From: Streptomyces sp. ALI-76-A
GTDB lineage: Bacteria > Actinomycetota > Actinomycetes > Streptomycetales > Streptomycetaceae
NCBI RefSeq assembly: GCF_030287445.1
Contig: NZ_JASVWB010000002.1
Coordinates: 434,001-498,000, forward strand
DNA: 64,000 bases
Reading direction: 5' to 3'
This document shows, one piece after another, positions 7,739 through 64,000 of the stretch (positions within the stretch are counted from its first letter, which is position 1; the number at the start of each line of letters is the position of its first letter). The notes below the pieces were generated by a model. The model had not been told where the DNA came from and made no database searches. It saw nothing but the letters and a program-made list of their open reading frames with translations. Position numbers and translations under genes: made by a program.

Positions 7739-8165
7739 CCAGGAAAGCTGACGAAGGGAAGCGGGCGCGGGAGGTCCGGGTGCCCGCCGTCGACCTGTAC
7801 TCCGGCGCCGGCTTCGACGATGGCCCGGGCGAGGTGTGCGCGAGGCTCGTCGACGACGTGTCCGCCGTCTTCCGGGCTCCCGCGGACGTCTCTCCTGTCG
7901 GGCTACGGGCCGACGGCGGCGGCCGAACCAGCGTCCCTGGGCATACCCGGCGGCGCGGACCCGGCCATGGTGACCGGTGACTCCGAGCCTCGCCGCCTAC
8001 GCGACCGGACACCCCGTACCCGGACCGTGCGTCTCACCGACGGCGGGCCGGCACCCAGTCTGCCCGCGCGGCTCTGAGCACCCACATGAGCGTGGAGTCC
8101 CGTAGACGCTGTGATCGGCGGCCACCGACACAACGGACCCTGCTGCCGCTGCGCCGACCGCCCCG

Positions 8166-8372
8166 CTACATGTTGATCATGTGGCCGGCGAGGCCGTGGA
8201 CGGCCTCCTTGACCGCCTCGCCCAGGGTGGGGTGGGCGCGCACGTTGCGTGCGACCTCGTGGACCGTGAGGTCCCACTGCTGGGCCAAGGTCAGTTCGGG
8301 GAGCAGCTCGGTGACGTCGGGGCCGATGAGATGGGCTCCGAGGAGCTCGCCGTACCTGGCGTCGCTGATCCC
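8166..8372 (-). pseudogene. C-terminal scar of dihydrolipoamide dehydrogenase
   Basis: About 67 residues match the end of the dimerisation domain of lipoamide dehydrogenases. [15 protein letters not shown] is followed by the segment carrying the catalytic His-Pro dyad and Glu ([16 protein letters not shown]) and then the usual C-terminal tail GLAGHMINM with TAG at 8166. Everything upstream (FAD and NAD domains) is missing, so the piece cannot be functional. It lies just downstream of the pca genes, as E3 genes of acyl-CoA/ketoacid clusters sometimes do. Confidence 0.75.
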
Positions 8373-8589
8373 GCCGCCACGGCCGGGGAACGGCCGCGCC
8401 CGCAGCACGCGGCCCGCCTACGCCCAGGGTGCGCGCCACCCCGCCGGCACCCCGCTCGACTCCCACCGCGCGTACACGGGGCCGCCGTGCTCGCCTCGCC
8501 CGGAGTCGCAGCTCGGGTGTGGAGAGACACGAGCTCTCCCCACCCGAGCCGGTGACCGTGGCCGGGCTGGACGCGCCAGGTGACACGGA

Positions 8590-9294
8590 TCAAGCCAGCG
8601 TGATGCCGAGTCTCTCCGCGAGTTCGTGGGCGCTGACGCCGTACGTCTCCCGGATCCGTACCCCGTCGGGGCCGACGTCGAAGACGCCGCAGTCGGTGTA
8701 GACACGGCTGACGCAGCCGACGCCGGTGAGCGGGTAGGTGCACTGCGGCACGAGCTTCGGCTCACCGGAGCGGGTGAAGAGCGTCATCATCACGTAGACG
8801 TCCTTGGCGCCGATGGCGAGGTCCATGGCGCCGCCGACGGCGGGGATGTCGTCGGGCTTGCCGGTGGTCCAGTTGGCGAGATCTCCGTCGAAGGCGACCT
8901 GGTAAGCCCCGAGGACGCAGACATCGAGGTGACCGCCGCGCATCATGGCGAAGGAGTCGGCGTGGTGGAAGTACGCCGCCCCCGGCAGCTCGGTCACCGG
9001 GACCTTGCCCGCGTTGGTCAGGTCGGGGTCGACCGCGTCGCCCTCGGCCTTCGGGCCCATGTTGAGCATGCCGTTCTCGGTGTGCAGTACGACCCCGGAG
9101 TCGGCCGGCAGGTGGTCGGCGATCTTGGTGGGCTGCCCGATTCCGAGGTTGACGAAGGCGCCGGCCGGAATGTCGCGTGCGATGACGGCGGCCAGTTCGT
9201 CCATCGAGAGCCGGTGTTCGGCACTTCTCGGTGGCCCGGCACACGTCTGGCCGCTCGACGTGGTGGCTGATGTGGTGGCTGGCGTGGTGGTCAT
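8590..9294 (-). CDS. pcaJ: 3-oxoadipate CoA-transferase, beta subunit
   Basis: This 234-residue product is the B subunit of a family I CoA transferase. With PcaI it moves CoA from succinyl-CoA to 3-oxoadipate in aromatic degradation. VNLGIGQPTKIADHL and the active-site glutamate motif TENGMLNMGP are visible, as is the GGAMDLAIGAKDVYVMM segment typical of this subunit. Its ATG at 9294 overlaps the pcaI stop by ATGA, so the two are translationally coupled. There is an N-terminal Thr/Ser-rich extension of about 30 residues before the conserved MDELAAVIARDIPAGAF, so ATG 9204 is an alternative start. Confidence 0.9.
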   Translation of the reverse strand: MTTTPATTSATTSSGQTCAGPPRSAEHRLSMDELAAVIARDIPAGAFVNLGIGQPTKIADHLPADSGVVLHTENGMLNMGPKAEGDAVDPDLTNAGKVPVTELPGAAYFHHADSFAMMRGGHLDVCVLGAYQVAFDGDLANWTTGKPDDIPAVGGAMDLAIGAKDVYVMMTLFTRSGEPKLVPQCTYPLTGVGCVSRVYTDCGVFDVGPDGVRIRETYGVSAHELAERLGITLA

Positions 9295-9986
9295 CGGGCC
9301 CCCTGCACGGTGTAACGGCGGGCCTCAACCTGGACGACCCGGTCGACATAGATGGACGGGGTGACGACGGCCTCGGCGTCGAGCGTTCCGGGCTCGACGA
9401 CCTCGCCGACCTGGACGATGGTCGTGGTCGCGGCCGTGGCCATGACCGGTCCGAAGTTGCGGGCCGTCTTCCGGTACACGAGGTTGCCCATCCTGTCCGC
9501 GACGTGCGCGCCGATCAGCGCGTAGTCGCCCTTGATGGGGTATTCCAGCAGGTACTTCCGACCGTCGATCTCCCGCTCCTCCTTTCCCTCGGCCAGCGGC
9601 GTGCCGACCGCGGTCGGGCAGTAGAACGCACCGATGCCGGCACCGGCCGCGCGCATCCGCTCGGCGAGGTTGCCCTGCGGCACCACCTCGAGCTCGATCT
9701 TCCCCTCGCGGTAGAGGCCGTCGAAGACCCAGGAGTCGGACTGGCGCGGAAAGGAGCAGAGCACCTTGCGCACCCGGCCCGCGGCCAGCAGCGCGGCCAG
9801 CCCGACCTCACCGTTGCCGGCGTTGTTGGACACGATCGTGAGGTCCTTCGCGCCCTGCCGGATGAGCGCGTCGATCAGATCGAAGGGCATCCCGGCCAGG
9901 CCGAAGCCGCCGACGAGGATCGTGGACCCGTCCTCGATGCCGGCGACCGCGGCATCGGCGTTCTCGACGATCTCCGCCCGGCTCAC
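9291..9986 (-). CDS. pcaI: 3-oxoadipate CoA-transferase, alpha subunit
   Basis: This 231-residue A subunit of the family I CoA transferase has the glycine-rich oxyanion/CoA loop GGFGLAGMPFDLIDAL near residues 22-37 and the downstream GAFYCPTAVGTPLAEGKE. It works as a heteromer with PcaJ to form 3-oxoadipyl-CoA. The chosen start is GTG 9986, which gives a GTGA overlap with the stop of the upstream thiolase gene and starts directly at the family N-terminus (SRAEIVENADAAVAGI). The order F-I-J with overlapping codons indicates one operon. Confidence 0.92.
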   Translation of the reverse strand: MSRAEIVENADAAVAGIEDGSTILVGGFGLAGMPFDLIDALIRQGAKDLTIVSNNAGNGEVGLAALLAAGRVRKVLCSFPRQSDSWVFDGLYREGKIELEVVPQGNLAERMRAAGAGIGAFYCPTAVGTPLAEGKEEREIDGRKYLLEYPIKGDYALIGAHVADRMGNLVYRKTARNFGPVMATAATTTIVQVGEVVEPGTLDAEAVVTPSIYVDRVVQVEARRYTVQGAR

Positions 9987-11188
9987 TGGGCCGTCTCCGT
10001 GACGCCGCAGTTCTCGAGTACGACGGCCAGTCCCTGACCGACCCCGATGCAGATCGCGGCGACGCCGTAGCGCTGCTTCGTCTCGCGCAGCACCTTGGCC
10101 AAGGTGGCAAGGACGCGACCGCCCGAGGCGCCCAGCGGGTGCCCGATCGCGATGGCGCCGCCCTTCTGGTTGACGATGGCGGGATCGACCTTCCACGCGT
10201 CGAGGCAGGCCAGCGACTGCACGGCGAAGGCCTCGTTGAGCTCGACCGCGCCCACCTGGTCCCAGCCGATCCCGGCCCGGGCCAGCGCCCGGTTCGCGGC
10301 CTCGACCGGGGCGTAGCCGAAGGCCTGCGGCTCAAGCGCCATCACACCGCGGCCGGCGATACGGGCGATCGGGTCGGTCCCGATCCTGGCCGCGGCCTTC
10401 TCGCTGCCCAACAGCACCGCGGAGGCACCGTCGTTGAGGGGGCTGGCGTTGCCCGCGGTGATGGTGCCGCCCTGCTCCGGTGTACGGAAGACCGGTTTGA
10501 GCCCGGCCAGCGCCTCCGGTGTGGATCCGGCCCGGATGCCCTCGTCACGGGTCAGGTCGACGCCTTCGACCGGCACCACCAGGTCGTCGTAGAAGCCCGA
10601 CTCCCACGCCGCGTGGGCGAGTTGGTGGGAGCGGGCGGCGAACTCGTCCTGCCGCTCCCGAGAGATGTCGAAGCGCTCCTGGAGCTGCTCGTTGGCCTCG
10701 CCGAGGCTGACCGTCCACTCCTTGGGCATCCGTGGGTTGACCAGCCGCCACCCGAGCGTGGTCGAGACCGCGGTGACATCGCCGACCGGGAACGGCTTCG
10801 CCGACTTGGGCAGCACCCATGGCGCGCGCGTCATCGACTCCACACCGCCGGTCAACACCACCTCGGCGTCAGCGGACTCGATCGCCCGGCTGGCCATCAT
10901 CGCCGCATCGAGGCTCGAACCGCACAGCCGGTTGACCGTGGTGCCGGGCACGCTCACCGGAAGCCCGGCGAGCAGCGCCGCCATGCGGCCGACGTTGCGG
11001 TTCTCCTCGCCGGCGCCGTTGGCGTTGCCCCACACCACATCGTCGATCCCGACGGGGTCGAGACCTGGCACCCTGGCGAGCGTGGAGGTGATCGCGGCGG
11101 CGGCGAGGTCGTCGGGGCGGACTCCGGCCAGCGCGCCGTTGAAGCGGCCGAACGGCGTCCGCGTCGCGGCATAGATGAAAGCACTCAT
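9983..11188 (-). CDS. pcaF: Acetyl-CoA acyltransferase, beta-ketoadipyl-CoA thiolase
   Basis: This 401-residue thiolase is the last step of the beta-ketoadipate pathway, splitting 3-oxoadipyl-CoA with CoA into succinyl-CoA and acetyl-CoA. The nucleophilic cysteine is C89 in NRLCGSSLDAAM. The C-terminal motifs NEAFA, the GHPLGASGGR histidine loop and the second catalytic cysteine in AAICIGVGQG are all present. ATG 11188 starts the usual SAFIYAATRTPFGRF. Length and linkage to pcaIJ favour the 3-oxoadipyl-CoA enzyme over a biosynthetic acetoacetyl-CoA thiolase. It is first in the operon and divergent from a LysR gene with only 71 bp between the start codons. Confidence 0.9.
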   Translation of the reverse strand: MSAFIYAATRTPFGRFNGALAGVRPDDLAAAAITSTLARVPGLDPVGIDDVVWGNANGAGEENRNVGRMAALLAGLPVSVPGTTVNRLCGSSLDAAMMASRAIESADAEVVLTGGVESMTRAPWVLPKSAKPFPVGDVTAVSTTLGWRLVNPRMPKEWTVSLGEANEQLQERFDISRERQDEFAARSHQLAHAAWESGFYDDLVVPVEGVDLTRDEGIRAGSTPEALAGLKPVFRTPEQGGTITAGNASPLNDGASAVLLGSEKAAARIGTDPIARIAGRGVMALEPQAFGYAPVEAANRALARAGIGWDQVGAVELNEAFAVQSLACLDAWKVDPAIVNQKGGAIAIGHPLGASGGRVLATLAKVLRETKQRYGVAAICIGVGQGLAVVLENCGVTETAQ

Positions 11189-11229
11189 GGCAGCGACGCT
11201 AATCGCGAGCCACGATATTCTGAAGTACG

Positions 11230-11251
11230 CGTATCCCAGCCGATTGATACG
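11230..11251. promoter_or_regulatory. Inverted repeat in the pcaF/lysR divergent promoter
   Basis: The perfect arms cgtatc and gatacg are separated by 10 bp, ending 8 bp before the LysR start codon. A second short palindrome, tacgcgta, overlaps its left edge at 11226-11233. The spacing and position between divergent genes fit a LysR recognition site that controls both the pca operon and the regulator itself (inference). Confidence 0.5.
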
Positions 11252-11259
11252 GACAGCAT

Positions 11260-12141
11260 ATGGATCTGCGCCACCTGCGGTACTTCGTGGCGGTGGCCGA
11301 GGAGCGCCACTTCGGTCGCGCCGCCGAGCGGCTCCACATGGCCCAGCCGCCGCTGTCCACGCAGATCCGCCAGCTCGAAGCAGAGCTCGGCGTCGAGCTG
11401 CTCCGCCGCACCACACGCCGCGTCGACCTCACCGAGGCCGGCCGGGCCTACCTGGAGCGGGCGCGCGCGATCCTCGCCGATGTCGACGAGGCCGCCCACC
11501 ACGCACGGCTCGTCGCCGCCGGCGCGGTGGGCCACCTCGCGATCGGATGCGTGGGCTCGGCGACGTACAGCCTCCTGCCCGCGCTCTCGCGGCGGCTCAC
11601 GGAGGAGCTTCCCGGCGTCGACTTCTCCTTCCGCGGCGAGATGCTCGCGCCCGACCAGGTCGAGGCGCTGCGCTCCGGCGCGATCGACGTCGCACTGCTG
11701 CGCCCGGTGGCGGCCGACCCCTCCCTCACCGTGCACACGCTGCGCCGGGACCGGCTCGTCGTCGCCGTACCGGTCGACCACCCCCTCGCCCGCCGGAAAC
11801 GGTTGCGGGCGGCGGACCTGGCAGGTGCCGACCTGATCGTGCACTCCGCCGACCGCCGGTCGGTGATGTACGACGTCGTCCTGGGCCTCCTGCGCGACGC
11901 GGGCGTCGAGCCGCACATCCGTCACGAGGTCGGCGAGACCTCGACCCTGGTCACGCTCGTGGCCGGCGGCCTCGGCGTCGCGGTCGTGCCCGAGCCCGTG
12001 ACCGCGCTCACGCTCGACGGCGTCGCCTACCTGCCGCTGGCCGGGCCCGACGCACGTGTGGAGCTGGCCGTCGCCCACCGCACGGACCGCGCCGAGCCGC
12101 ACCTGACGCGCACCGTGGGAATCATCCAGGCGATGTTCTGA
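11260..12141 (+). CDS. LysR-family regulator of the pca operon
   Basis: This 293-residue protein has an N-terminal winged helix (residues 1-60; MDLRHLRYFVAVAEERHFGR and QPPLSTQIRQLEAELG) and a two-lobed periplasmic-binding-like effector domain from about residue 90. The pattern AAERLHMAQPPLS resembles the CatR/BenM/PcaQ group of aromatic-catabolism activators. It is divergent from pcaFIJ, so it probably activates that operon in response to a pathway intermediate. The exact inducer is not deducible. ATG at 11260 starts the fold directly, and no Shine-Dalgarno is obvious. Confidence 0.85.
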   Translation: MDLRHLRYFVAVAEERHFGRAAERLHMAQPPLSTQIRQLEAELGVELLRRTTRRVDLTEAGRAYLERARAILADVDEAAHHARLVAAGAVGHLAIGCVGSATYSLLPALSRRLTEELPGVDFSFRGEMLAPDQVEALRSGAIDVALLRPVAADPSLTVHTLRRDRLVVAVPVDHPLARRKRLRAADLAGADLIVHSADRRSVMYDVVLGLLRDAGVEPHIRHEVGETSTLVTLVAGGLGVAVVPEPVTALTLDGVAYLPLAGPDARVELAVAHRTDRAEPHLTRTVGIIQAMF

Positions 12142-12163
12142 GACATCCACCGACGCCGGACAA

Positions 12164-12272
12164 GGGCCCGCTCGGCGGGGCAACCCGCCCGGCGGCGTCG
12201 GGGGCGCGGTGGTCGCCGTGGACGCCATGGACGCAATGGGCGCAATGGGCGCAATGGGCGCCGAGCGGGCCC
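12164..12272. repeat. Long inverted repeat enclosing a 9-bp tandem repeat
   Basis: The exact 14-bp arms gggcccgctcggcg (12164-12177) and cgccgagcgggccc (12259-12272) enclose 81 bp. Inside are four tandem 9-bp units, atggacgca, atgggcgca, atgggcgca and atgggcgcc, at 12227-12262. The structure begins 22 bp after the LysR stop codon and may act as its terminator. The tandem units give a spurious repetitive reading frame that I do not accept as coding. Confidence 0.65.
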
Positions 12273-12506
12273 GATTCCACGGCATGGGGCCCGTTCGCTC
12301 GTCGGAACGCCGGCGCACCGCAGCCCGCCGGCCCCGATCGACGGCTGACTCCCTGAGGTGGCGAGGCGGATTCTGCCGCCGTCGGTGCGATCAGGTCCGC
12401 GGCAGGGCCTGCAAGGTGGCCGGCCCAAGGACCACGAGAGGGGGCCCCGACCATCGCGGGCGAGGTGGCCTAGCCGCGGAGCAGGTTCGCTGTCACGATC
12501 GATACC

Positions 12507-13319
12507 ATGGCTCAACTCACTGTGGCGGGCGTGGCGTTGGCGGCCACCTTCGTCGTGTACGGCCTGCTCGGCATCGCCTGGTGGTCGCGCGGCCGGGCCG
12601 ACCGCAAGGCTGCGGCGCGGCTCGGCTCGCTGGAGATCGACCCGTACCACGCCATCGCCACGGCGGGGTGGCCGGAGGACGCCGACCGGGCCGCGGCGGC
12701 CGAGCTGATCCGGGGCGGCATGGTGGAGGTCGACGCCGAGGGTTTCCTCACCACGGGGCGGCGCGTCCGTCCGGCGGAGCCGCCGGCGTACAGACCGGAA
12801 CACCCGGTACCGAACGCGCTGCTGGACGCCCTGACACGGCACGGCGGCAGGTCGACCCTGCGCGGACTCGTCGACGACCCGCCGCTCAGAGCGGCCCGGG
12901 AAGTCTTCCTGCGTACCGAGGACGCCAAGGTGCCACGCTGGTCCGACCGCCGCGAGGACGGCCTCCACTCCGCCGCCACCCTGACCGCGCTGCCGCTGGC
13001 CCTCTTCTACGCTGTCCAGATCGTCTTTCTGCGGAAGGAGTCCGCGCCGCACGGAATCGTGGACACCCTGCTCGCACTCCTCCTCGTCGTGATCCTCTGG
13101 CTGATGATCGCGGTCCCCGTCGGCTGGTTCGTGCTGAGGTTCTGGCCGGGCCGCCGCGACCCCTTCCGCGAGCACTGCGCCCGACTGCCACGGCATCCGG
13201 CCCTGGCGGCCCTCGCTGAGCACCAGAACGCGGCGTTGGCCAGGAGTGCCTCCTACCGGGAGCCGTGGGAAGTGGAGAGGGACCGCTGGGTCGACGTGGA
13301 CGCGCCCGGCGCCTTCTAG
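12507..13319 (+). CDS. Membrane protein of the TIGR04222 type
   Basis: This 270-residue integral membrane protein has a predicted N-terminal segment at residues 5-26 (GVALAATFVVYGLLGIAWW). A cytoplasmic stretch starting LEIDPYHAIATAGWPEDAD has the alternating helix/wing pattern seen in TIGR04222 proteins. Two further membrane helices lie near 153-174 and 188-210. The C-terminal 60 residues are charged and probably cytoplasmic. The function of this actinobacterial family is not known. ATG 12507 is the only sensible start. The gene lies alone between repeats and a 385-bp gap. Confidence 0.75.
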   Translation: MAQLTVAGVALAATFVVYGLLGIAWWSRGRADRKAAARLGSLEIDPYHAIATAGWPEDADRAAAAELIRGGMVEVDAEGFLTTGRRVRPAEPPAYRPEHPVPNALLDALTRHGGRSTLRGLVDDPPLRAAREVFLRTEDAKVPRWSDRREDGLHSAATLTALPLALFYAVQIVFLRKESAPHGIVDTLLALLLVVILWLMIAVPVGWFVLRFWPGRRDPFREHCARLPRHPALAALAEHQNAALARSASYREPWEVERDRWVDVDAPGAF

Positions 13320-13704
13320 GCTGCGTGCCGGCGGAAGGAACAGGGGCGCACCGGGCTGCGCCAGAAGCAGCGGGCCCGATCCAACAGCCGGTCTGGACCG
13401 ATGAGGTCCCCTTGCGCGAGGGCCGGACCGATGGCCCGTGCCCCCGTCGACGCCGAGTCTTCCCGCCAGGGCGGCCTTGCCCGGACGGACACGCCTCGAC
13501 TGGACCGAGTCACACGCACTGGGGTCCGAAGGGCCCGAGCGTGACCGAAGTCGGTGAACATGCGGCGGCAGGCCTCCCGTCCGGCGTCCGTGCTCCGCAC
13601 AACGAGACGCTGGACGCGGCGTGAACACACCCTTGCCGCCCTCACCCGCACCTTGCACCCTGTGACACGGGGAGTCGCGGTCCGTGACGGGGAGGGGTCG
13701 TTCG
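13320..13704. other. Gap with no recognisable gene
   Basis: All frames here are short or arginine/proline-rich, and none has a credible start with a ribosome site. It should hold the promoter of the downstream gene. I see no repeat or strong hairpin. Confidence 0.4.
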
Positions 13705-48525: not shown

Positions 48526-49896
48526 ATGTTCACAGGGGGATTGAGGACTTGGGCCGGGCGGCACGCCATACGGACGACTGTGGTCCTGAGCGCAGGCGTC
48601 GTGCTGGCCACGGCACTGACCGGTTGCCAGCAGGACGACCGGGTCGTCGAGAAGGTGACGAAGGCCAGGGGCGCGTACCCGGACAGGGTCGAGCGGCCCT
48701 CCCCCGGGTTCCAGGTCGCGCTGACCACGGTACCGCTCGTCGCTGACAACAGGCTTCGGGTACTCGATGCAGAGAACCGGGTGTGGGCCGAGCCGTTGGA
48801 GGCTCCGCAGAAGACGCCCGCCTACTGGTCGTACGAGCGTGACGAGACGGTGCTGACCGTGGAGTTGGCCGAACGCGCCGGGCGGGCGCCACTCGCCGTG
48901 TCCTTGTGGGCCGACGGCGGGCTGATCGCCGTGGACACGCGGACCGGCACGGTGGCGTGGCGCGCCGAGGTCGGCGGTTCCATCAGTGACCGTTGGTCGG
49001 CGTTCGACCGCTACCACTACGACCGGGGCGGCAGGTACGCGGACAGCAGGCTGCGAGTCGTCTCGGGGGACGGCCGTCCGGTGGTGCTGGTCGACGTTTC
49101 AGAGGCCGGTCTGATCGCCTTCGACGCCGCCGACGGCGACGAACTGTGGAACGGGGACTGGAAGTGCGACGAGCCCGGCGCCACGAGTACGTCCTGGGTG
49201 GCCACCCATGCCGTCGTCGTGGCGGAGGACTGCTACACGGGCGTCCGCCTTCTCGACCCGAGGACCGGCAAGCAGACCGCGGAACTGGACCCGAAGGCCC
49301 CAGCGGAATGGCCGCAGGCCGGTGAGAACGGCATCCAGGCTCCCGTCCTCAGCGAGTACGGGTGCGTCCGCGAAGTCTGCGACCTGCTGAAGTTTCAGCT
49401 GAGCGGCAGCTCGGGAGGCGTCGAACCGCTGTACTTCTGGATCGACGACAAAGGCAAGGCGGTTCCCCTCGACAAGGATGAGCCCACTCCCGACGCCGAG
49501 GGCCTGCCGCCCGAGGTGCAGACCAGCAGCGAGGGGTTCGTGCTGACCGCGACCGACGTGGCCGAACGCACGACGCGCTGGCACGTGGAGACACCGCTCA
49601 ACACGGCGGGCCTGCGCTCCTTCGGCAACGTGGTCGTCACCTCCGACGTGGTCTGGGTCGACTCGAAGAACTGGAAGGAAAAGGGACCCGCTTTGCTGGC
49701 CTACGACCTGGAGAGCGGCAAGCAGACCACCTGCCGGAAACCCCCGGGAAAGGCGATCGAAGACATGGCCGCGGCCGGTGACTACCTCGTGATGAGCGAC
49801 GTCGACATCGACTCGGAGTCCACCGCGGAGCCCACGTTCGACGTGGACGATCACCCGTTCCTCATGATGTACCCGGAGCGGAAGAGCACCTGCTGA
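48526..49896 (+). CDS. PQQ-like beta-propeller lipoprotein
   Basis: This 456-residue exported protein has a lipoprotein signal (RTTVVLSAGVVLATALTGC, cysteine at about residue 34). The mature part has repeated propeller blades with the 'LxAxDxxxGxxxW' pattern (LIAVDTRTGTVAWRAEVGG, LIAFDAADGDELWNGDWKC, LLAYDLESGKQTTC). Four cysteines (DWKCDE, EDCYTG, YGCVREVC) may be disulfide-bonded in the exterior. Family members are common in Streptomyces as surface proteins of unknown role. ATG 48526 follows AGGATGCCCCA. Confidence 0.82.
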   Translation: MFTGGLRTWAGRHAIRTTVVLSAGVVLATALTGCQQDDRVVEKVTKARGAYPDRVERPSPGFQVALTTVPLVADNRLRVLDAENRVWAEPLEAPQKTPAYWSYERDETVLTVELAERAGRAPLAVSLWADGGLIAVDTRTGTVAWRAEVGGSISDRWSAFDRYHYDRGGRYADSRLRVVSGDGRPVVLVDVSEAGLIAFDAADGDELWNGDWKCDEPGATSTSWVATHAVVVAEDCYTGVRLLDPRTGKQTAELDPKAPAEWPQAGENGIQAPVLSEYGCVREVCDLLKFQLSGSSGGVEPLYFWIDDKGKAVPLDKDEPTPDAEGLPPEVQTSSEGFVLTATDVAERTTRWHVETPLNTAGLRSFGNVVVTSDVVWVDSKNWKEKGPALLAYDLESGKQTTCRKPPGKAIEDMAAAGDYLVMSDVDIDSESTAEPTFDVDDHPFLMMYPERKSTC

Positions 49897-54483: not shown

Positions 54484-56865
54484 ATGCAACCACTGCACCC
54501 AGAAGATCCCGAGCAGCTAGGGCCCTACCGTCCGGTCGCCCGTCTCGGAGCAGGCGGGATGGGTCGGGTTTTTCTGGCCACCTCGCCGGCCGGCCGCCCC
54601 GTGGCGGTCAAGGTCATCCGTCCCGAGATGGCCGAGGACCAGAACTTCCGGATCCGCTTCCGGCGTGAGGTGGCGGCCGCCGCGGCCGTCGGCGGCGTGT
54701 ACACGGCCTCCGTGGTGGACGCGGCCCCGGACGACGAGACTCCATGGCTCGCCACCGCCTACGTACCCGGCCCCACCCTGGCCGAGGCGGTCGCCGCACA
54801 CGGGCCGCTGCCGGTGGAGACGGTCCTCGCGCTGGGCGCGGGCATCGCCGAGGCGCTGATCGCGGTGCATGCCGAGGGGTTGGTGCACCGCGACCTCAAG
54901 CCGTCCAACGTGCTGCTCGCCGCGGACGGTCCGCGCGTCATCGACTTCGGCATCGTCCGGGCCCGGGACGGCTACCAGCTCACCGGCTCCGGCGGCCTGT
55001 TCGGCTCGCTCGACTACGTCTGTCCCGAACAGGCCACCGGCGATCCGGTGGGACCGGAGGGAGACGTCTTCTGTCTCGGCTCGGTGCTCGCGTTCGCGGC
55101 GTCGGGACACGCGCCGTTCAGCGGGGCCGCCGCGGCCACCCTGCTCTATCAGGTGGTCCACGGTTCGGCCGATCTGACCCTGGTGCCCGAGCCACTGGAC
55201 AAAATCATCAGCCTCTGTCACGCCAAGGACCCGGCCCTTCGTATCAGCCCCGACCGGCTCTCCGCCGCGTGCGCGCCCGGCGGTGCCGAACACGTGCTGA
55301 CGGAGGGCTGGCTGCCCGCGCGGGTGGCCGCCATGGTCGACGACCGCCAGGCGGCCGCGACGGATCTCGACCGCCTCGCGCGGACCCTGACGCCCGCACG
55401 GCCCGCGGCCGACGCAGCCGCCGGAACTCCCGCCGCGTCCTCCCGATACGGACCGGGCCGGACAGCGGTGGGGCCGTCGTCGCACGGGACCGACGGCGGG
55501 GACGGCGCCGCGGACCCGGACCGCGTCCGCCCGGCCGGGGACGCGGACGACCGCTCCACCGGTGGAAGCGGAGCCACCGGTGGAGCGCCGGCCACCGCGG
55601 AGCCGCCGGAGCGGAGACCCCCGGCGGCCGCTGCCGAACCGGCGCAGCCGGCCCAACCGGTGACGGAACGTTCCGCCGCACCCGCGCACCGCCGTGCCCC
55701 CGAACGCCCGCCTGTCGGCCGGCGCACCCTCCTTGCCGTGACCGCGGGCGCGGCCCTCGTCGGGGGCACCGCCCTCGTCGTCGGACGAAGGTCCGGCGGG
55801 CAGCGGGCGCCCCGGCCCGGCCCCGCCCCGGAACCGACCTGGGTCTACCGCGGCGGCCCGCTGCTCCAGACCCCGGCCGTCTTCAACGACGGCACGGCCC
55901 TGCTGAAGAGCCGCCCGGGCACCATGATCTGCCTCGACCTGAGGAACGGATCCCAGCCCGAATGGGTCTACCAGGGCATCAGCCTCTCCCCCAGTCCCGT
56001 CCTGCTGGCCAACGACGCCGCCGTCGCCCTCGGCACCGGTGCGACCCTCATCGGCGTCGACCTGGCCAGCGGCGCCGAGAAGTTCACCCTCAACTTCGGC
56101 CGGGACGTCCAGTTCGATCAACTCCTCGGTGGATACGACGGCCATGTCGTCTCTGTCCTCGGCGCCAGGCTGGAACGCCGGTCGGAGGAGCAGGGCGTCG
56201 CGACCTCCACCAGCGCGGTCTTCGGCGTCGACCTCAGGGCCCGCCGGGCCGTCGTCATACCGATCGACCCGCAGGACGTCGGCGTTCCCCTCAAGCCCGT
56301 CATCACGTCCAACGCCTTCGTCTACGCCGACGGGCTGCGCAATGTCACGGTCCGCAGCACCCGCGAGGGCGGTGGCCTGCGTTGGCGGTACCCGGTGGGC
56401 TACGACCTGCGGCCAGGTCTCGCGGTGCTCGGCGGAACCGTCTTCGCCATCGGCTCGGAGTTCATCGCCCTGGACCTCGCCACCGGAAAGCTCCGCTGGA
56501 AGGCGAAGGCGGAACGCGGCATGTTCGCCTCCCTCGGGACGGGCGGCAACACGGTCTACGCCACGGGCACCGATCCCTACGGCGTCCATGCCTTCGACGC
56601 GGCGACCGGCGACCGGCGCTGGTTCTGCGAGACCCCCCGCCTCAACGTCGACCACCCGATCGCGGTGGGAGCGGACGCCGTGCACGTGCCGGCCTTCGAG
56701 AACAGGAACGGCTTCTACGCGATCGACGCCGCCTCCGGCCGTCTGCTGTGGAACTTCACCGACGGCCGCGAGACCGGCGTCAACGACTGGCAGCTCTCCT
56801 GCGACGGTGCCGGACACCTCGTGGCCCAGCACTTCGACCGGGTCTACGGACTGCCCGTCACCTGA
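54484..56865 (+). CDS. Membrane Ser/Thr protein kinase with extracytoplasmic PQQ propeller
   Basis: This 793-residue Hanks-type kinase has GAGGMGRVF (P-loop, residues 22-30), catalytic lysine K43 in VAVKVI, HRDLKPSN near 136-143 and DFGIVRARDG near 155. The activation segment is TGSGGLFGSLDYVCPEQATG, with the threonine and serine available for autophosphorylation. A Pro/Ala-rich linker (about 310-410) leads to a membrane helix near 415-438. The C-terminal 330 residues form a PQQ-like beta-propeller sensor (VYQGISLSPSPVLLANDAAV, LIGVDLASGAEKFTLNFGRD). ATG 54484 fits the usual N-terminus. The propeller probably senses an external ligand. It overlaps by 8 bp the convergent Imm5-like gene. Confidence 0.92.
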   Translation: MQPLHPEDPEQLGPYRPVARLGAGGMGRVFLATSPAGRPVAVKVIRPEMAEDQNFRIRFRREVAAAAAVGGVYTASVVDAAPDDETPWLATAYVPGPTLAEAVAAHGPLPVETVLALGAGIAEALIAVHAEGLVHRDLKPSNVLLAADGPRVIDFGIVRARDGYQLTGSGGLFGSLDYVCPEQATGDPVGPEGDVFCLGSVLAFAASGHAPFSGAAAATLLYQVVHGSADLTLVPEPLDKIISLCHAKDPALRISPDRLSAACAPGGAEHVLTEGWLPARVAAMVDDRQAAATDLDRLARTLTPARPAADAAAGTPAASSRYGPGRTAVGPSSHGTDGGDGAADPDRVRPAGDADDRSTGGSGATGGAPATAEPPERRPPAAAAEPAQPAQPVTERSAAPAHRRAPERPPVGRRTLLAVTAGAALVGGTALVVGRRSGGQRAPRPGPAPEPTWVYRGGPLLQTPAVFNDGTALLKSRPGTMICLDLRNGSQPEWVYQGISLSPSPVLLANDAAVALGTGATLIGVDLASGAEKFTLNFGRDVQFDQLLGGYDGHVVSVLGARLERRSEEQGVATSTSAVFGVDLRARRAVVIPIDPQDVGVPLKPVITSNAFVYADGLRNVTVRSTREGGGLRWRYPVGYDLRPGLAVLGGTVFAIGSEFIALDLATGKLRWKAKAERGMFASLGTGGNTVYATGTDPYGVHAFDAATGDRRWFCETPRLNVDHPIAVGADAVHVPAFENRNGFYAIDAASGRLLWNFTDGRETGVNDWQLSCDGAGHLVAQHFDRVYGLPVT

Positions 56866-59242: not shown

Positions 59243-60022
59243 TTGACCGAGACGACGACACGGCCGAATGAGACGGTGGTGCCGGTTCTGCCGTGTGTGG
59301 ACGTGGAGGAGACGCTGGCGTTCTACCAGGCGCTCGACTTCACGGTCACCTACAGGCAGGCACGCCCCTACCTCTATCTCGCCCTGGAGTGGAGCGGTTT
59401 CGCGGTGCACTTCCGCAAGCCGCCGAGGGGCCACGACCCGGCCGGGGAGGACGGCGGCATCTGCCTGGTCATGGTGGACGAGGTCGCCCCCTACCACGCC
59501 GACTTCACCCGGGCCATGCGTGCCGCCTACGGCAAGGTGCCGGCCAAGGGACAACCGCGCATCACACGCTTCCGTCCGGGTCAGAGGCGCTTCACTCTCG
59601 TCGACCCGTCCGGCAACTCGCTCATCTTCATCCGGCGGGACGAGCCGGCCGAACTCGAATACGGTGGGTCCCGAGAGTTGCAGGGCCTGGCCCGGGCGCT
59701 CGACAACGCCCGCGTCTTCCGTGAGTTCAAGAACGACGACCGGGCCGCCTTCCGGGCGATCTCCTCCGCGCTGCGCAGGCACGGCGACACCGCCTCGGCG
59801 CTGGACCGGGCGCTGGCCATGGCCACGCTCATCGAACTGGCCACCGCCTTGGAGGAGCCCGCCCACATCGACACTTGGGTACGCGAACTGCGACAGGTCC
59901 ACCTCACCGACGCCGAACGCGAGCGCGTGGCCGACGAGTTGCACCATGCCGAGGACCTCACGCGCTGGCTGGCCGGAAGCAATCCCGACGCGGGGACGGG
60001 GAACGACGGCTCGTCCGGGTGA
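59243..60022 (+). CDS. VOC-family protein with C-terminal helical extension
   Basis: The 259-residue protein starts at TTG 59243 behind GGGGGA. The first 130 residues are a VOC module (VVPVLPCVDVEETLAFYQAL and FRPGQRRFTLVDPSGNSLIF). The rest (ELQGLARALDNARVFREFKN, to LADELHHAEDLTRWLAG-like helices) is an alpha-helical extension, possibly TPR-like, found in some actinobacterial VOC proteins. It is not clear whether a metal is bound. It is probably transcribed from the promoter at 59123-59152. Function unknown. Confidence 0.75.
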   Translation: MTETTTRPNETVVPVLPCVDVEETLAFYQALDFTVTYRQARPYLYLALEWSGFAVHFRKPPRGHDPAGEDGGICLVMVDEVAPYHADFTRAMRAAYGKVPAKGQPRITRFRPGQRRFTLVDPSGNSLIFIRRDEPAELEYGGSRELQGLARALDNARVFREFKNDDRAAFRAISSALRRHGDTASALDRALAMATLIELATALEEPAHIDTWVRELRQVHLTDAERERVADELHHAEDLTRWLAGSNPDAGTGNDGSSG

Positions 60023-60301
60023 TCCGCCTGGCGGCCACCACCTTCGGCCGGTCGGGGCGAAGTACGGTTCGAACGTGGGTGCTTGGACAGCCAGGCGACA
60101 CGACAAGCCCTCAGGCATGAAGATGGCGATCCACAGCTCGCGTCGCAGCAGCGCAACACCTCGGCCCACTCCGGGAAGTCGCTGCTGCGAAGGCAGCCGC
60201 AGCCGTCACGCCGCCCGGCGAATTGCTGATTTCCTCATGCCCACCTGTGGCAAGCACTAGGGTGGCGCGCATCACATCGCAGTAGGTGGCGGGGGAGCTC
60301 A

Positions 60302-60679
60302 ATGCCCGAATTGCTGAGGGTACCGCTGGAAAGCGGCGGTTCCGTGCTGGTGGAGGTCGACAACGGACCACAGGCGGTGGTCAGAGTCGCCAGGCCCGGC
60401 GGGATGGTGACGGAAGCGTCCGAGACGCTGGAGCGCGGTCTGGAAAGTGTGCGCGAGGCCGCGCATGCCGTGCTCGGCAAGGTGGCCGACCTGCCGCGCC
60501 AACCGGACAAGATCACTCTGGAGCTCGGGTTGAAGCTGTCGGCGGAAGCCGGCGTCTTCCTCGCCAAGACCGCCGGCGAGGGGTCGCTCACCCTCACCCT
60601 GGAGTGGGACAAGCAGCGACCGGAATCCGTGCCGATCACTCAGGCCGTCGCCGCCCGCGATGGTGCCGTGGCGGGATAA
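60302..60679 (+). CDS. Trypsin-co-occurring domain 1 protein (CU044_2847 family)
   Basis: This 125-residue protein starts at ATG 60302 with GGGGGAG five bases before. The N-terminal half has the pattern MPELLRVPLESGGSVLVEVD, and the second half LPRQPDKITLELGLKLSAEA, GVFLAKTAGEGSLTLTLEWD, which is the trypsin-co-occurring domain 1 fold described near trypsin-STAND conflict genes. It is small, soluble and cytoplasmic. Its stop is 18 bp before the protease-STAND gene, so the two form one operon. The domain is thought to be a partner or substrate of the protease (family knowledge plus inference). Confidence 0.85.
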   Translation: MPELLRVPLESGGSVLVEVDNGPQAVVRVARPGGMVTEASETLERGLESVREAAHAVLGKVADLPRQPDKITLELGLKLSAEAGVFLAKTAGEGSLTLTLEWDKQRPESVPITQAVAARDGAVAG

Positions 60680-60697
60680 GGGGACGGGGACGCCTCG

Positions 60698-63600
60698 GTG
60701 CCCGGACCTGTGCCCAACCCCGGGATCGCCCGCCTGTGGTCGCGCGGCGCGTGGGCCGCGCCACAGGGGGCCGGCTTTCTGGCAGGGCCCCGGATCGTGC
60801 TCACCTGCGCGCACGTGGTGTCGGCCGTCACCGGAGAGCGGGAGCAGAGTCCCCTCGCTGTGGGGCTCACCGTCGAGCTGGACTTTCCGCTTGCCGGGCG
60901 GGCAGCCCGCAGACAGAGCGCGCGGCTCATCACGCACCTGCCTGTCGCGGAGGACGGCTCCGGTGACATTGCCGTCCTCGCACTCGATGAGGACCCGCCG
61001 CCCGGGGCTGAGCCTGTGCGGTTGCTGGACGTCGAGACCGTGCGCGGCCACCCGTTCCGGGCGTTCGGCTTCCCGGCCGGCGACGACGAGGGCGTCTGGT
61101 CGCTCGGCACGATCGTGGACGACCGCGGCCGGGGCTGGCTGCAGTTCGAGAGCACCAGCGCCTGCGAGATCCGGCAGGGCTTCAGTGGCACGCCCCTGTG
61201 GGACGAGCACTTCATGGGCGTGGTCGGCATGGTTGTCGCCACCGACGGACGGTTCCTGCAACGAGCGGCGTACGCCATCACCGCCGGTGTTCTGTTGGAT
61301 GTCCATCCTGAACTGCGTCGACTCGCCGCGCCGCCATCGCCGTTCCGTGGACTGGAGTCGTTCCGGGAGCAGGACGCCACTCACTACTTCGGGCGAGCCG
61401 AGCAGATCAAGGCCTTGACCGAGACGGTCACCACGTCGTCGATCGTGCCGGTCATCGGGGTGTCCGGGGTGGGCAAGTCATCGCTCATCCACGCCGGCCT
61501 TGTACCCCGGCTGCGCGAGCGTGGGGACTACAGCATCGCCTCGCTGGTCCCGGAGCCGGCTCTGGGAGCGGAACTCATGCTTGCTTCCGCCCTGCTGCCC
61601 CTGCTCAACACGCCGGACGACGTGATCAAGCCGCTCGACCGACTCGAACAGGTCGAACGGCTCGCCGGACGACTGCGGGAGGGGGCGACCGCTCCGGTCG
61701 TCCGGGAGTTGCTCACCCGCTCCGGGACGGCCCAGCTCGCCCTGATCGTAGATCAGTTCGAGATGTTGTTCCGCTGCTCGCCCGACGCGGCCGATGCCTT
61801 GGTCGACCAGTTGGTGGTGATGACCGGATGGCGCACCGCGGACGGCGGACCGTTGGTGCGGCTGGTCTTCGCCCTGCGACTGGACTTCCTCAAGGCCATG
61901 CAGCGCTTCCCTGTTCTGGGGCGGGTGTGCGAGGCGGCGCCGGTCCTCGTCGACCGTCTGGCCGAAGACCAGCTCCGTGAGGTGGTGCTGTCCCCGATCG
62001 CCTCACTGCACGGGGCCGTGCGTTTCGAGGAACTGCTCGCCGAGCGGTTGCTCTCGGACGCGGGCCGCAGCCCCGGCGCGCTGCCTCTGCTCGAGTTCAC
62101 CCTCACCCTGCTGTGGGAGCAACAGCGTCAGGGTGTCCTCGGGCACGCCGCCTACGAGGAGATCGGCCGCGTCGCCGGCGCCCTCGCGTCGCATGCCGAG
62201 CGCGTCGTCAAGGAACGGCTGGGTGACGTGCGTGACGAGGTGCGGCGACTGTTCGTACAGCTTGTTCGCCCAGGGGACGGAGGTCTCGACAACCCGGTCG
62301 ACACCGGGCGCGTCGCACGCCGCACGGAGCTGCACCCCGCCTGCTGGGAGGCCGCGCAACTACTGGCCGTACAGCGGCTGGTGCACCTCGATCGCGCGTC
62401 CGACGGCGTGGAGACGGTCGCGCTCGCCCATGAAGCGCTGCTGGAGCACTGGCCTGCGCTGCGTTCCTGGGTCGACGCCGACCGCGGCTTCCGGAACTGG
62501 CAGGAACACGTGCGCGAGCGCGTCGCTCGCTGGGAGCACAGCGGCCGCGAACACGCCCTGTTGATGCGCGGTTCCGAACTCAGGCACGCGCGGGAGCACC
62601 TGCGCGGCCGGCCGGACGACATCTCCGGGAGCGAACGCGCATACCTCGGCGCGAGCCAGGAGTGGCGTCGGCGCCGGAGGTTACGCAGAGCCGTCGCCGC
62701 GGCGGCGGTCACGGCGGTGATGGCGACCCTGGCCGGCATCGGAGCGCACTCGGTACGTGGCAGTAAGGCCGCCGAACTGTCCGCCGGCCTCGTGCAGCAG
62801 GCCCGGAGCGAGGCGGACTCCCACCGGGAGAAGGCCGCGCTCCTGTCCGTCGCCGCCTGGCGCACCGCGTCCACCCAACAGGCACACGACAACCTGTTCG
62901 CCCGCTATCTGGCCGATGCCCCGTACGACGCGGTCCTGCCCGCGGGCGGGGAGGTCGCGGACACAGCGCTGGACGACTCCGGCGAGGTCGTGGCGGTACG
63001 CAACGTGGCGGGTGGGCTCACGGTGTGGCGTGTCGAGGCCGGCGGTCCCTCCCTGATCATCCGGATGGACGACGTATCGGCCGTCGCGGTCAGTCCTGAC
63101 GGCACCCGGCTGGGTGTGGGCGGCGACGGCAACCGCATCAGGATCTGGGACCTGCGCAGGAACAGAACCCTGCTCACCCTGCGAGGCGCGACGAGCACCA
63201 CCAGCACCGCTCAGGCAGTGGACGAACTGCGCTTCGACCGCACGGGACGCCGCCTGCTGACCCATCCTCCGCAGGACGACACGGCCCAGGTCTGGAACCT
63301 CGACCGACCCACCGCCGCGCCCCTCACCCTGGAACCGCTGCCCGAGGGATCACCCACCGGGTTCGTCTTCGACGCGGACGGCAGACACGTCGTGGCCTCC
63401 GACCCGGGGGCCTGGCCCCAGGGCGTCTGGGACGCGCGCTCCGGCCGCCGGATCGCCGTCCCCGGCTCGGCGGAGCCGAAGTTCGCCCCGGGCCCCCGCC
63501 CCGTGGGCACGACGTGTGCCGGCGGCACGTGGCGGCTGACCGACGTCTCCGCCGGCAGCCCCGACCCGCGTCTCTTCCAGGGCCTGCCCTGCGACACCGA

Positions 63601-64000
63601 GAACCTGACGACCGGCGAGTTGGTCGGCATCTCCGACCAGGTCGTCCTGGCACGCGACAACGCAGAGGTGACGGTGCACGACGCCGCCACCGGACAACGC
63701 CTTCTCGTCCTGGCCGAGGACGGTGCCAAGGGCAGCCGCACCCGCTACGCCCTGGCCGGCGCGAGCCGCCGCATGGCCTTCGCCCGCGGGACGGAAGTAC
63801 TGGTGACCACTCCCCCGGCGCCCGGCTCCCTCTCGACCTCCGGCATCTTCGTCACCGGCCACGACGAGGAGGCCGCGCACTTCTCCCCGTCCGGCCGCCA
63901 TCTGGTCACGGTGGGCGTCGGCGGGGCGGTCGCGGTCTGGGACCCGACGACCGGACGGCGGCGGGCTTCCGTCGGTGGCGGCGGGTACCAGAGGTCAGCG
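60698..64000 (+). CDS. Trypsin-like protease / nSTAND NTPase / WD40 protein, runs off the edge
   Basis: GTG 60698 opens a frame that is still open at the window edge (1101 codons). Residues 1-205 are a trypsin-like protease with catalytic His39 (TCAH), Asp90 (GSGDIAVL) and Ser163 (GFSGTP). Next is nSTAND1-like PFRGLESFREQDATHYFGRA, Walker A GVSGVGKSS (254-262) and Walker B LALIVDQFE near 350. Then come a helical region, a membrane-like helix near 662-685 (AVAAAAVTAVMATLAGIGAH) and WD40-like repeats from about 750 (VAVSPDGTRLGVGGDGN, IRIWDLRRNRTLLTL). The architecture is that of predicted defence or signalling STAND proteins in which ligand binding to the repeats activates the protease. Confidence 0.9.
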   Translation, partial: MPGPVPNPGIARLWSRGAWAAPQGAGFLAGPRIVLTCAHVVSAVTGEREQSPLAVGLTVELDFPLAGRAARRQSARLITHLPVAEDGSGDIAVLALDEDPPPGAEPVRLLDVETVRGHPFRAFGFPAGDDEGVWSLGTIVDDRGRGWLQFESTSACEIRQGFSGTPLWDEHFMGVVGMVVATDGRFLQRAAYAITAGVLLDVHPELRRLAAPPSPFRGLESFREQDATHYFGRAEQIKALTETVTTSSIVPVIGVSGVGKSSLIHAGLVPRLRERGDYSIASLVPEPALGAELMLASALLPLLNTPDDVIKPLDRLEQVERLAGRLREGATAPVVRELLTRSGTAQLALIVDQFEMLFRCSPDAADALVDQLVVMTGWRTADGGPLVRLVFALRLDFLKAMQRFPVLGRVCEAAPVLVDRLAEDQLREVVLSPIASLHGAVRFEELLAERLLSDAGRSPGALPLLEFTLTLLWEQQRQGVLGHAAYEEIGRVAGALASHAERVVKERLGDVRDEVRRLFVQLVRPGDGGLDNPVDTGRVARRTELHPACWEAAQLLAVQRLVHLDRASDGVETVALAHEALLEHWPALRSWVDADRGFRNWQEHVRERVARWEHSGREHALLMRGSELRHAREHLRGRPDDISGSERAYLGASQEWRRRRRLRRAVAAAAVTAVMATLAGIGAHSVRGSKAAELSAGLVQQARSEADSHREKAALLSVAAWRTASTQQAHDNLFARYLADAPYDAVLPAGGEVADTALDDSGEVVAVRNVAGGLTVWRVEAGGPSLIIRMDDVSAVAVSPDGTRLGVGGDGNRIRIWDLRRNRTLLTLRGATSTTSTAQAVDELRFDRTGRRLLTHPPQDDTAQVWNLDRPTAAPLTLEPLPEGSPTGFVFDADGRHVVASDPGAWPQGVWDARSGRRIAVPGSAEPKFAPGPRPVGTTCAGGTWRLTDVSAGSPDPRLFQGLPCDTENLTTGELVGISDQVVLARDNAEVTVHDAATGQRLLVLAEDGAKGSRTRYALAGASRRMAFARGTEVLVTTPPAPGSLSTSGIFVTGHDEEAAHFSPSGRHLVTVGVGGAVAVWDPTTGRRRASVGGGGYQRSA

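Follow-up and report, generated by a model that had tools for sequence, protein, structure and literature searches.

Does a bacterial STAND protein with a fused protease sense inside the cell or outside it? In discussions of bacterial defence, STAND proteins usually figure as cytosolic sensors of invaders that have already entered the cell. The question is raised by a locus at the right-hand edge of a 64,000-nucleotide stretch of DNA (the window) from Streptomyces sp. ALI-76-A, corresponding to C2:434001-498000 of a 9.69-Mb genome in 5 contigs. Here a small gene of the Trypco1 family (trypsin-co-occurring domain 1) precedes a giant gene whose product combines a trypsin domain, an nSTAND1 nucleoside triphosphatase (NTPase), a predicted membrane helix and WD40 propellers. 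In this soil bacterium the giant has the look of a membrane-threaded cell-death switch, its protease inside and its propeller sensor outside next to a lipid-anchored partner. With confidence a little better than even, the evidence read from the sequence points to a receptor protease of three parts that signals from the outside inward, with tandem propellers like those of Apaf-1 and a lipoprotein as partner, possibly serving defence.

A three-gene unit

The locus is a unit of three genes encoding Trypco1, the giant and a lipoprotein. Its features are as follows, with positions beyond 64000 counted on in the numbering of the window:

60291..60297, + strand: ribosome-binding-site-like GGGGGAG before the Trypco1 gene (sequence reading)
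60302-60679, + strand: Trypco1 gene, ATG start, 125 aa, predicted cytosolic partner (PF19493, 3.5e-26; CU044_2847 family match)
60686..60690, + strand: ribosome-binding-site-like GGGGA before the giant gene (sequence reading)
60698..64000 in the window, + strand: giant trypsin-nSTAND1-membrane helix-WD40 gene, GTG start, open at the window edge
60767..61231, + strand: Trypsin_2 (PF13365) peptidase domain, residues 24-178 (Pfam 4.9e-14, 53.7 bits vs cut-off 27.6)
60812-60814, 60965-60967 and 61184-61186, + strand: catalytic codons of His39, Asp90 and Ser163 (alignment)
61340..62554, + strand: nSTAND1 NTPase (PF20703), residues 215-619 (Pfam 1.7e-88, 298.3 bits vs cut-off 27.1)
61475-61477 and 61751-61753, + strand: Walker A Lys260 and Walker B Asp352 (alignment)
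62690..62746, + strand: predicted membrane helix, residues 665-683, with an Arg-rich stretch before it (hydropathy and charge; sequence evidence only)
62750..62914, + strand: three-helix stalk, residues 685-739 (predicted structure)
62924..63817, + strand: first WD40 propeller, ~residues 743-1040 (Pfam, predicted structure, cysteine alignment)
63827..64000, + strand: start of the second WD40 propeller, ~residues 1044-1368, running past the window edge (predicted structure)
64909-65457 (window-equivalent, outside the window): lipoprotein gene, third member, 182 aa, putative start

The GTG of the giant gene at 60698 lies 18 bp past the Trypco1 stop, and the full protein of 1408 aa ends at the window equivalent of 64924, in the next stretch of the same genome (L002:698-4924). 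Both GGGGGAG and GGGGA are candidate sites, judged by their likeness to the ribosome-binding-site consensus. The putative lipoprotein start overlaps the end of the giant gene by 16 nt. An overlap of this kind is found at all nine readable loci including this one, with 16 nt in seven and 19 nt in two, and it is kept down to ~51% lipoprotein identity. At these loci the last codons of the giant gene hold a G-rich, ribosome-site-like stretch before the lipoprotein start; the exact start is putative because six of the nine have further in-frame starts within ~40 nt past the giant stop. The earlier note on this DNA had described a two-gene system with the small Trypco1 protein 18 bp before the giant. 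The position and family of the small gene are borne out, but the coupled lipoprotein gene is a third member. Extending the contig, as that note advised, located the end of the giant gene and showed the locus as then described to be incomplete, the third gene following directly.

The lipoprotein carries a lipoprotein-type signal and matches LppP/LprE (PF14041; 1.7e-10, 41.3 bits vs cut-off 25). The lipobox pattern is present in 18 of 19 sequences and four mature cysteines in all 19. Across 295 genomes of the genus, the trypsin domain (E up to 1e-20) occurs in 59 and the lipoprotein (E up to 1e-10) in four; the close trypsin relatives (75-100% identity) are confined to the same four genomes, adjacent and on the same strand. 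No lipoprotein apart from the giant was found in the 295 genomes at E 1e-10. PF14041 scores above its cut-off in 9 of 291 genomes, among which the same four score best (34-44 bits) and five others reach 25-28 bits. We read the co-occurrence and adjacency as one inherited cassette.

The giant falls among 19 close protein clusters of 61-100% identity, its own included. When the best 120 out of 1119 relatives are taken, the remaining 101 show at most 39%, and this gap makes the orthologue group discrete. The named close relatives are all Streptomyces. A search of genome contigs gave nine named orthologous loci and three further, distant ones. Another search listed 70 trypsin places, one of them the present locus, and the next 41 best-scoring were retrieved. 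Three of these are the orthologues L048, L049 and L051, which were not recounted; the rest form 37 stretches with 38 places, one place per stretch being analysed. Together 48 loci were assembled and 47 analysed, L055 having no open frame at the match. The pooled tally of these 47 (30 with Trypco1, 6 with the lipoprotein) undercounts the orthologues: the longest-frame filter for downstream genes missed several lipoprotein genes, probably where frames start far upstream, and L044 was measured from the piece after an insertion. Dedicated readings of the loci were used instead, and these place the lipoprotein directly downstream in eight of the nine named orthologous loci, the exception being L044. 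In this locus of S. actuosus (8001-13427) DNA that includes a transposase/integrase gene, presumably IS3-like, splits the giant gene within its trypsin region, and the contig ends soon after; its Trypco1 stays 95% identical to that of ALI-76-A. Four of the distant giant frames (L096, L097, L101 and L103) are only 339-895 aa long, from other architectures or broken genes, and were kept in the count.

Trypco1 scores 92.1 bits against a PF19493 cut-off of 24.6, and no signal peptide or membrane helix is apparent in it (best 19-residue hydropathy 0.99). It lies directly upstream of the giant in all ten orthologous loci including this one, which upholds the partnership for close relatives. For more distant homologues, beside which the earlier note had said that a missing partner would count against it, the outcome is mixed: the 37 distant trypsin-nSTAND1 stretches have Trypco1 within 700 bp in 21, on either side of the giant and with four weak matches (E 3e-8 to 3e-4), and it is undetected in 16. 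The association is thus frequent, not obligatory, and a divergent partner may escape the profile. Since at least one Trypco1 occurs in 80 of 101 genus genomes, presence alone says little; the window copy is the only one in its own genome.

Orientation of the giant

The nSTAND1 match spans profile positions 1-378 of 379, above the curated cut-off. His39, Asp90, Ser163, Lys260 and Asp352 are invariant in all 28 aligned sequences, the present one included, at 27-86% identity to it; the catalytic parts of the trypsin and NTPase domains look intact. Profile matches and invariant residues place the domain architecture well beyond chance. WD40-type Pfam matches begin at ~residue 752, and the predicted structure of the C-terminal half matches 3sfz and 3shf, indicating tandem WD40 propellers after the NTPase, a feature of Apaf-1-type AP-ATPases. 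The genome holds a second strong nSTAND1 match (C2:4895598-4897016, - strand; 424.5 bits) with a membrane helix and WD40-like repeats by eye.

Close relatives also have a hydrophobic segment at the position that corresponds to residues 665-683. Helix and cysteine patterns were compared in the best 120 of the 1119 relatives, including the giant, a helix being counted where segment hydropathy reaches at least 1.6 within residues 380-1020. It is present in 115 of the 120, and the five others were excluded before charges and cysteines were counted. The helix is therefore near-constant in the nSTAND1-WD40 relatives. The triad, the Walker A lysine, the membrane helix and the WD40-like repeats reported in the earlier note all hold, but its remark that a single membrane helix is unusual does not. 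Trypsin-nSTAND1 proteins without a helix reaching the threshold do occur: in two Kitasatospora proteins (P0085 and P0091) a GAF/histidine-kinase part is joined to trypsin-nSTAND1.

In 111 of 115 proteins the N-side of the helix bears the higher net charge (mean +5.6 vs +0.6). Cysteine numbers are even in 95 of 115 after the helix vs 51 of 115 before it (Fisher p 2e-9), and in 78 vs 44 of 96 once the 19 closest sequences are left out. Among 33 representatives below 35% identity the figures are 24 of 33 after the helix (p 0.014) and 18 of 33 before. In 103 of 115 proteins the final 45 residues hold two cysteines, against an expectation of 0.21 per tail; 28 of the 33 representatives have exactly two there. 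In the giant these are Cys1375 and Cys1405, which lie after the second propeller; another alignment, of 47 sequences, shows both to be invariant. All 19 close sequences, the giant itself among them, also keep Cys940 and Cys965 in the first propeller as a further invariant pair. Cysteines conserved in pairs point to export, which makes an outside position of the propellers the more likely one. The giant shows the features of a single-pass membrane protein with a predicted inner N-terminus: one helix, positive-inside charge and disulphide-type cysteines after it. The propellers are thus probably outside and the protease and NTPase inside; the earlier note had not said which side the repeats face.

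Rates of change give a second line on orientation that does not depend on hydropathy. Mean identity over nine loci is 0.785 for the N-terminal half of the giant and 0.761 for Trypco1, compared to 0.612 for the C-terminal half and 0.619 for the lipoprotein. Divergence runs at the same rate in the C-terminal half as in the lipoprotein and is slower in the N-terminal half and Trypco1, a pattern that favours propellers on the outside. By domain, identity in the 19 close sequences is 0.809 for trypsin, 0.786 for nSTAND1, 0.62 for each propeller and 0.656 for the tail. Distance correlations between the parts are all high (0.74-0.91, nine loci), as would be the case for a cassette inherited together, and no contacts are singled out.

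Mechanism and competing explanations

In the mechanism proposed, the trypsin and nSTAND1 domains would lie in the cytosol, followed by the helix, the stalk and two disulphide-tied propellers outside. The co-translated LppP/LprE-type lipoprotein, also outside, would work with the propellers as a co-sensor or restraint. The pair would meet a ligand, perhaps a piece of a phage, a fragment of the envelope or something made by a rival, and the signal would pass through stalk and helix. The NTPase domains might then assemble much as in Apaf-1, by analogy with that system, and the clustered trypsin domains would turn active inside the cell. Trypco1 would be their cytosolic partner. It could be the protease substrate, by analogy with the upstream nuclease of Avs1 and Hachiman; having no known catalytic domain, it could equally be an inhibitor or adaptor. 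The general idea of a STAND-gated protease put forward in the earlier note is supported. A wider claim, made tentatively and with somewhat less than even confidence, is that of an Apaf-1-like apoptosome built across the bacterial membrane, in which external propellers with a dedicated lipoprotein co-receptor let an internal NTPase activate the fused trypsin, with Trypco1 as target or brake, the plan being family-wide in proteins of the nSTAND1-helix-WD40 type.

Several observations weigh against the receptor proposal. The stalk counts as an outside part, yet among the 19 close sequences its conservation equals that of the inside parts (0.801), and the segment immediately before the helix shows only 0.699, which blurs the division into fast and slow parts; exported proteins in general also usually change faster. 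The cysteine parity of the 33 representatives goes in the same direction with much less force. Without the tail pair, 18 of 28 representatives keep further cysteines, even in only 12 of the 18, so most of the parity signal comes from that pair. The helix is only moderately hydrophobic in close relatives (19-residue hydropathy ~1.6-2.1), the best windows elsewhere before it have a median of 1.52 and go up to 2.27 (n=115), and its position was taken from the residue range and not from the domains of each protein. Co-occurrence is seen in only four genomes, some of them related to each other, the five other genomes carry their weaker PF14041 genes without a close trypsin relative, and comparison of the lipoprotein model with solved structures gave no convincing relative. 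In PADLOC neither Trypco1 nor the lipoprotein has a match, and the giant matches weakly and in its trypsin part only. The dependence on the tail pair and the conserved stalk slightly lower confidence in both the three-part receptor and the trans-membrane apoptosome.

One alternative is a cytosolic, Avs-like sensor. Here the helix would dock on the inner face, the propellers would bind a phage protein in the cytosol, the NTPase would assemble and the trypsin would kill, with the lipoprotein as a bystander. WD40 domains are mostly cytosolic in eukaryotes, which suits this arrangement, as do the moderate hydropathy of the helix, a weak Avs1b match to the trypsin part, and the same order in characterised Avs1, where trypsin is fused N-terminally to the sensor (accessible text of PMC12799240). 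The charge bias across the helix and the mostly even cysteines after it argue against a cytosolic propeller, and so do the conserved overlap and joint occurrence of lipoprotein and giant and the absence of a metallo-β-lactamase (MBL) nuclease among the three proteins of the locus and nine scanned flanking proteins; such a sensor is unlikely. A further alternative concerns the lipoprotein alone: it could be a hitch-hiker frozen by its overlap with the giant end, Trypco1 and the giant forming the system. None of the 37 distant stretches (34-45% identity, best segment) has this lipoprotein after the giant, the lone weak match (E 0.006) lying near a giant start. But the overlap at nine of nine loci, the retained lipobox and mature cysteines and a lipoprotein never found on its own in the 295 genomes (E 1e-10) make a passenger improbable.

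The topology could also be right and the purpose different. A Streptomyces receptor for envelope or developmental signalling, in which the trypsin processes a regulator such as an anti-sigma factor, is compatible with outside propellers and is possible, though not probable. An outside propeller is a receptor layout, a Ser/Thr kinase-membrane helix-PQQ propeller protein is encoded nearby in the window, and the helix-turn-helix, kinase, cyclase and phosphorylase heads found among nSTAND1 relatives suit signalling; a working analogy would be the yeast SPS receptor for amino acids, in which a WD40 protein and an endoprotease take part (abstract of PMC12958826). The patchy presence in 4 of 295 genomes, the changing flanks, the EACC1-caspase-type neighbour at L051 and the insertion-broken L044 copy suit a conflict gene that can be dispensed with better than they suit a core regulator. 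Defence itself is opposed by the lack of any defence model beyond the weak trypsin matches, the blank PADLOC result for the L051 neighbours and the signalling-type heads. A role in defence or another conflict is rated somewhat above one half, anti-phage action specifically lower.

The flanks differ between loci except for L045 and L050, two genes shared by L049 and L051 (38-50% identity) and one ABC-type gene (30%). Upstream of the L051 cassette (L051:2940-7255) lie genes for EACC1, for a caspase fused to a solute-binding protein and for another solute-binding protein whose start resembles that of a lipoprotein; L049 has a related gene pair with a vWA domain. PADLOC, run on four of these neighbour proteins, matched none. 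In two close relatives, L045 (4315-7485) and L050 (4267-7416), the gene immediately before the cassette encodes a patatin-like phospholipase, assigned by Pfam on the L045 copy; the two copies are 85% alike. In ALI-76-A the upstream neighbour (59271-60022, +) shows weak similarity to bleomycin-binding protein (3.9e-5, far under the cut-off), without a Pfam family, and just beyond the window downstream lies a 757-residue protein with ricin-type lectin domains (L002:5607-7880, -) that was not seen beside the named orthologues. A few kb upstream, the kinase gene (54484-56865, +) encodes 793 aa with a hydrophobic segment at ~residue 416 and a C-terminal PQQ-type propeller, possibly the same enzyme-inside, propeller-outside layout as in the giant. 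It alone among the flanks matches PADLOC models, chiefly PD-T4-6, which we take as general kinase similarity. Another PQQ-propeller protein (48526-49896, +) has a lipobox-like start (LTGC) and is perhaps a lipoprotein-borne propeller.

Should the propellers of this family face outward, an entire class of STAND proteins would act as receptors at the cell surface, with proteolysis or the activity of some other enzymatic head as output, and in plan they would resemble animal receptors more than Avs proteins. If the plan of inside effector and outside propeller is family-wide, a large class of bacterial receptors has gone unrecognised. The cysteine and charge patterns make orientation an experimentally answerable question, and the lipoprotein, as a dedicated external partner, offers a concrete, deletable handle.

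Comparison with known systems

Parts of this arrangement are already in print: Trypco1 (PMC7159879), nSTAND1 (PMC8195603) and a proposed extracellular WD40 domain on a membrane-bound protease (PMC7475262), each as given in the accessible text. A trypsin-nSTAND1 protein with a dedicated lipoprotein, or outward propellers across the nSTAND1-WD40 relatives, was not found in the literature searched. The VMAP ternary systems (Kaur et al. 2020, PMC7159879, accessible part) resemble the locus in that a multicellular actinobacterium carries Trypco1 next to a trypsin-like domain. In those systems the trypsin forms a fusion with VMAP and is accompanied by MoxR-vWA, whereas here it is fused to nSTAND1, helix and WD40 with a coupled lipoprotein gene. 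A Pfam scan of 9 of the 12 genes predicted to flank the unit, over 21 kb, showed no MoxR, vWA or VMAP family; the search did not extend to the remainder of the genome. The same text describes EACC1 systems as membrane-associated conflict systems. The NTPase of the giant is of the same family as in the nSTAND1 systems of PMC8195603, whose available sections describe lectin-fold sensors and variable heads, a membrane-spanning trypsin-nSTAND1-WD40 protein with a lipoprotein not being among them.

For Avs1 and Hachiman, cleavage of an upstream-encoded nuclease by a fused trypsin is established, and with it the principle of protease-gated effectors (PMC12799240, accessible text). The earlier note had placed the trypsin and STAND proteins of type I AVAST on separate genes; in that source the trypsin is fused, and it is the MBL nuclease that has a separate upstream gene. 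Here this upstream position of the MBL pro-nuclease is taken by Trypco1, and the membrane helix and WD40 propellers stand in place of Avs1's own sensor part. An MBL-fold nuclease of the Avs1a type was not found upstream in a Pfam scan of the locus and nine flanking proteins, and the Avs1b model (1924 positions) matches only residues 23-127 of the giant, at 15.3 bits and near the model N-terminus, short of a whole-protein match.

Cyanobacterial orthocaspases with a membrane helix and WD40 domain offer the same layout of protease inside, helix between and WD40 predicted outside; their protease is of the caspase type, and the available sections of PMC7475262 mention no Trypco1 or lipoprotein. The Apaf-1 apoptosome, whose mechanism is established in animals (summarised in the accessible part of PMC7159879), has NB-ARC where the giant has nSTAND1; NB-ARC (PF00931) is not among the best 25 of the 27 Pfam families matching at E up to 1. 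Its protease is recruited through CARD, whereas that of the giant is fused, and the giant adds a membrane helix between the NTPase and the propellers.

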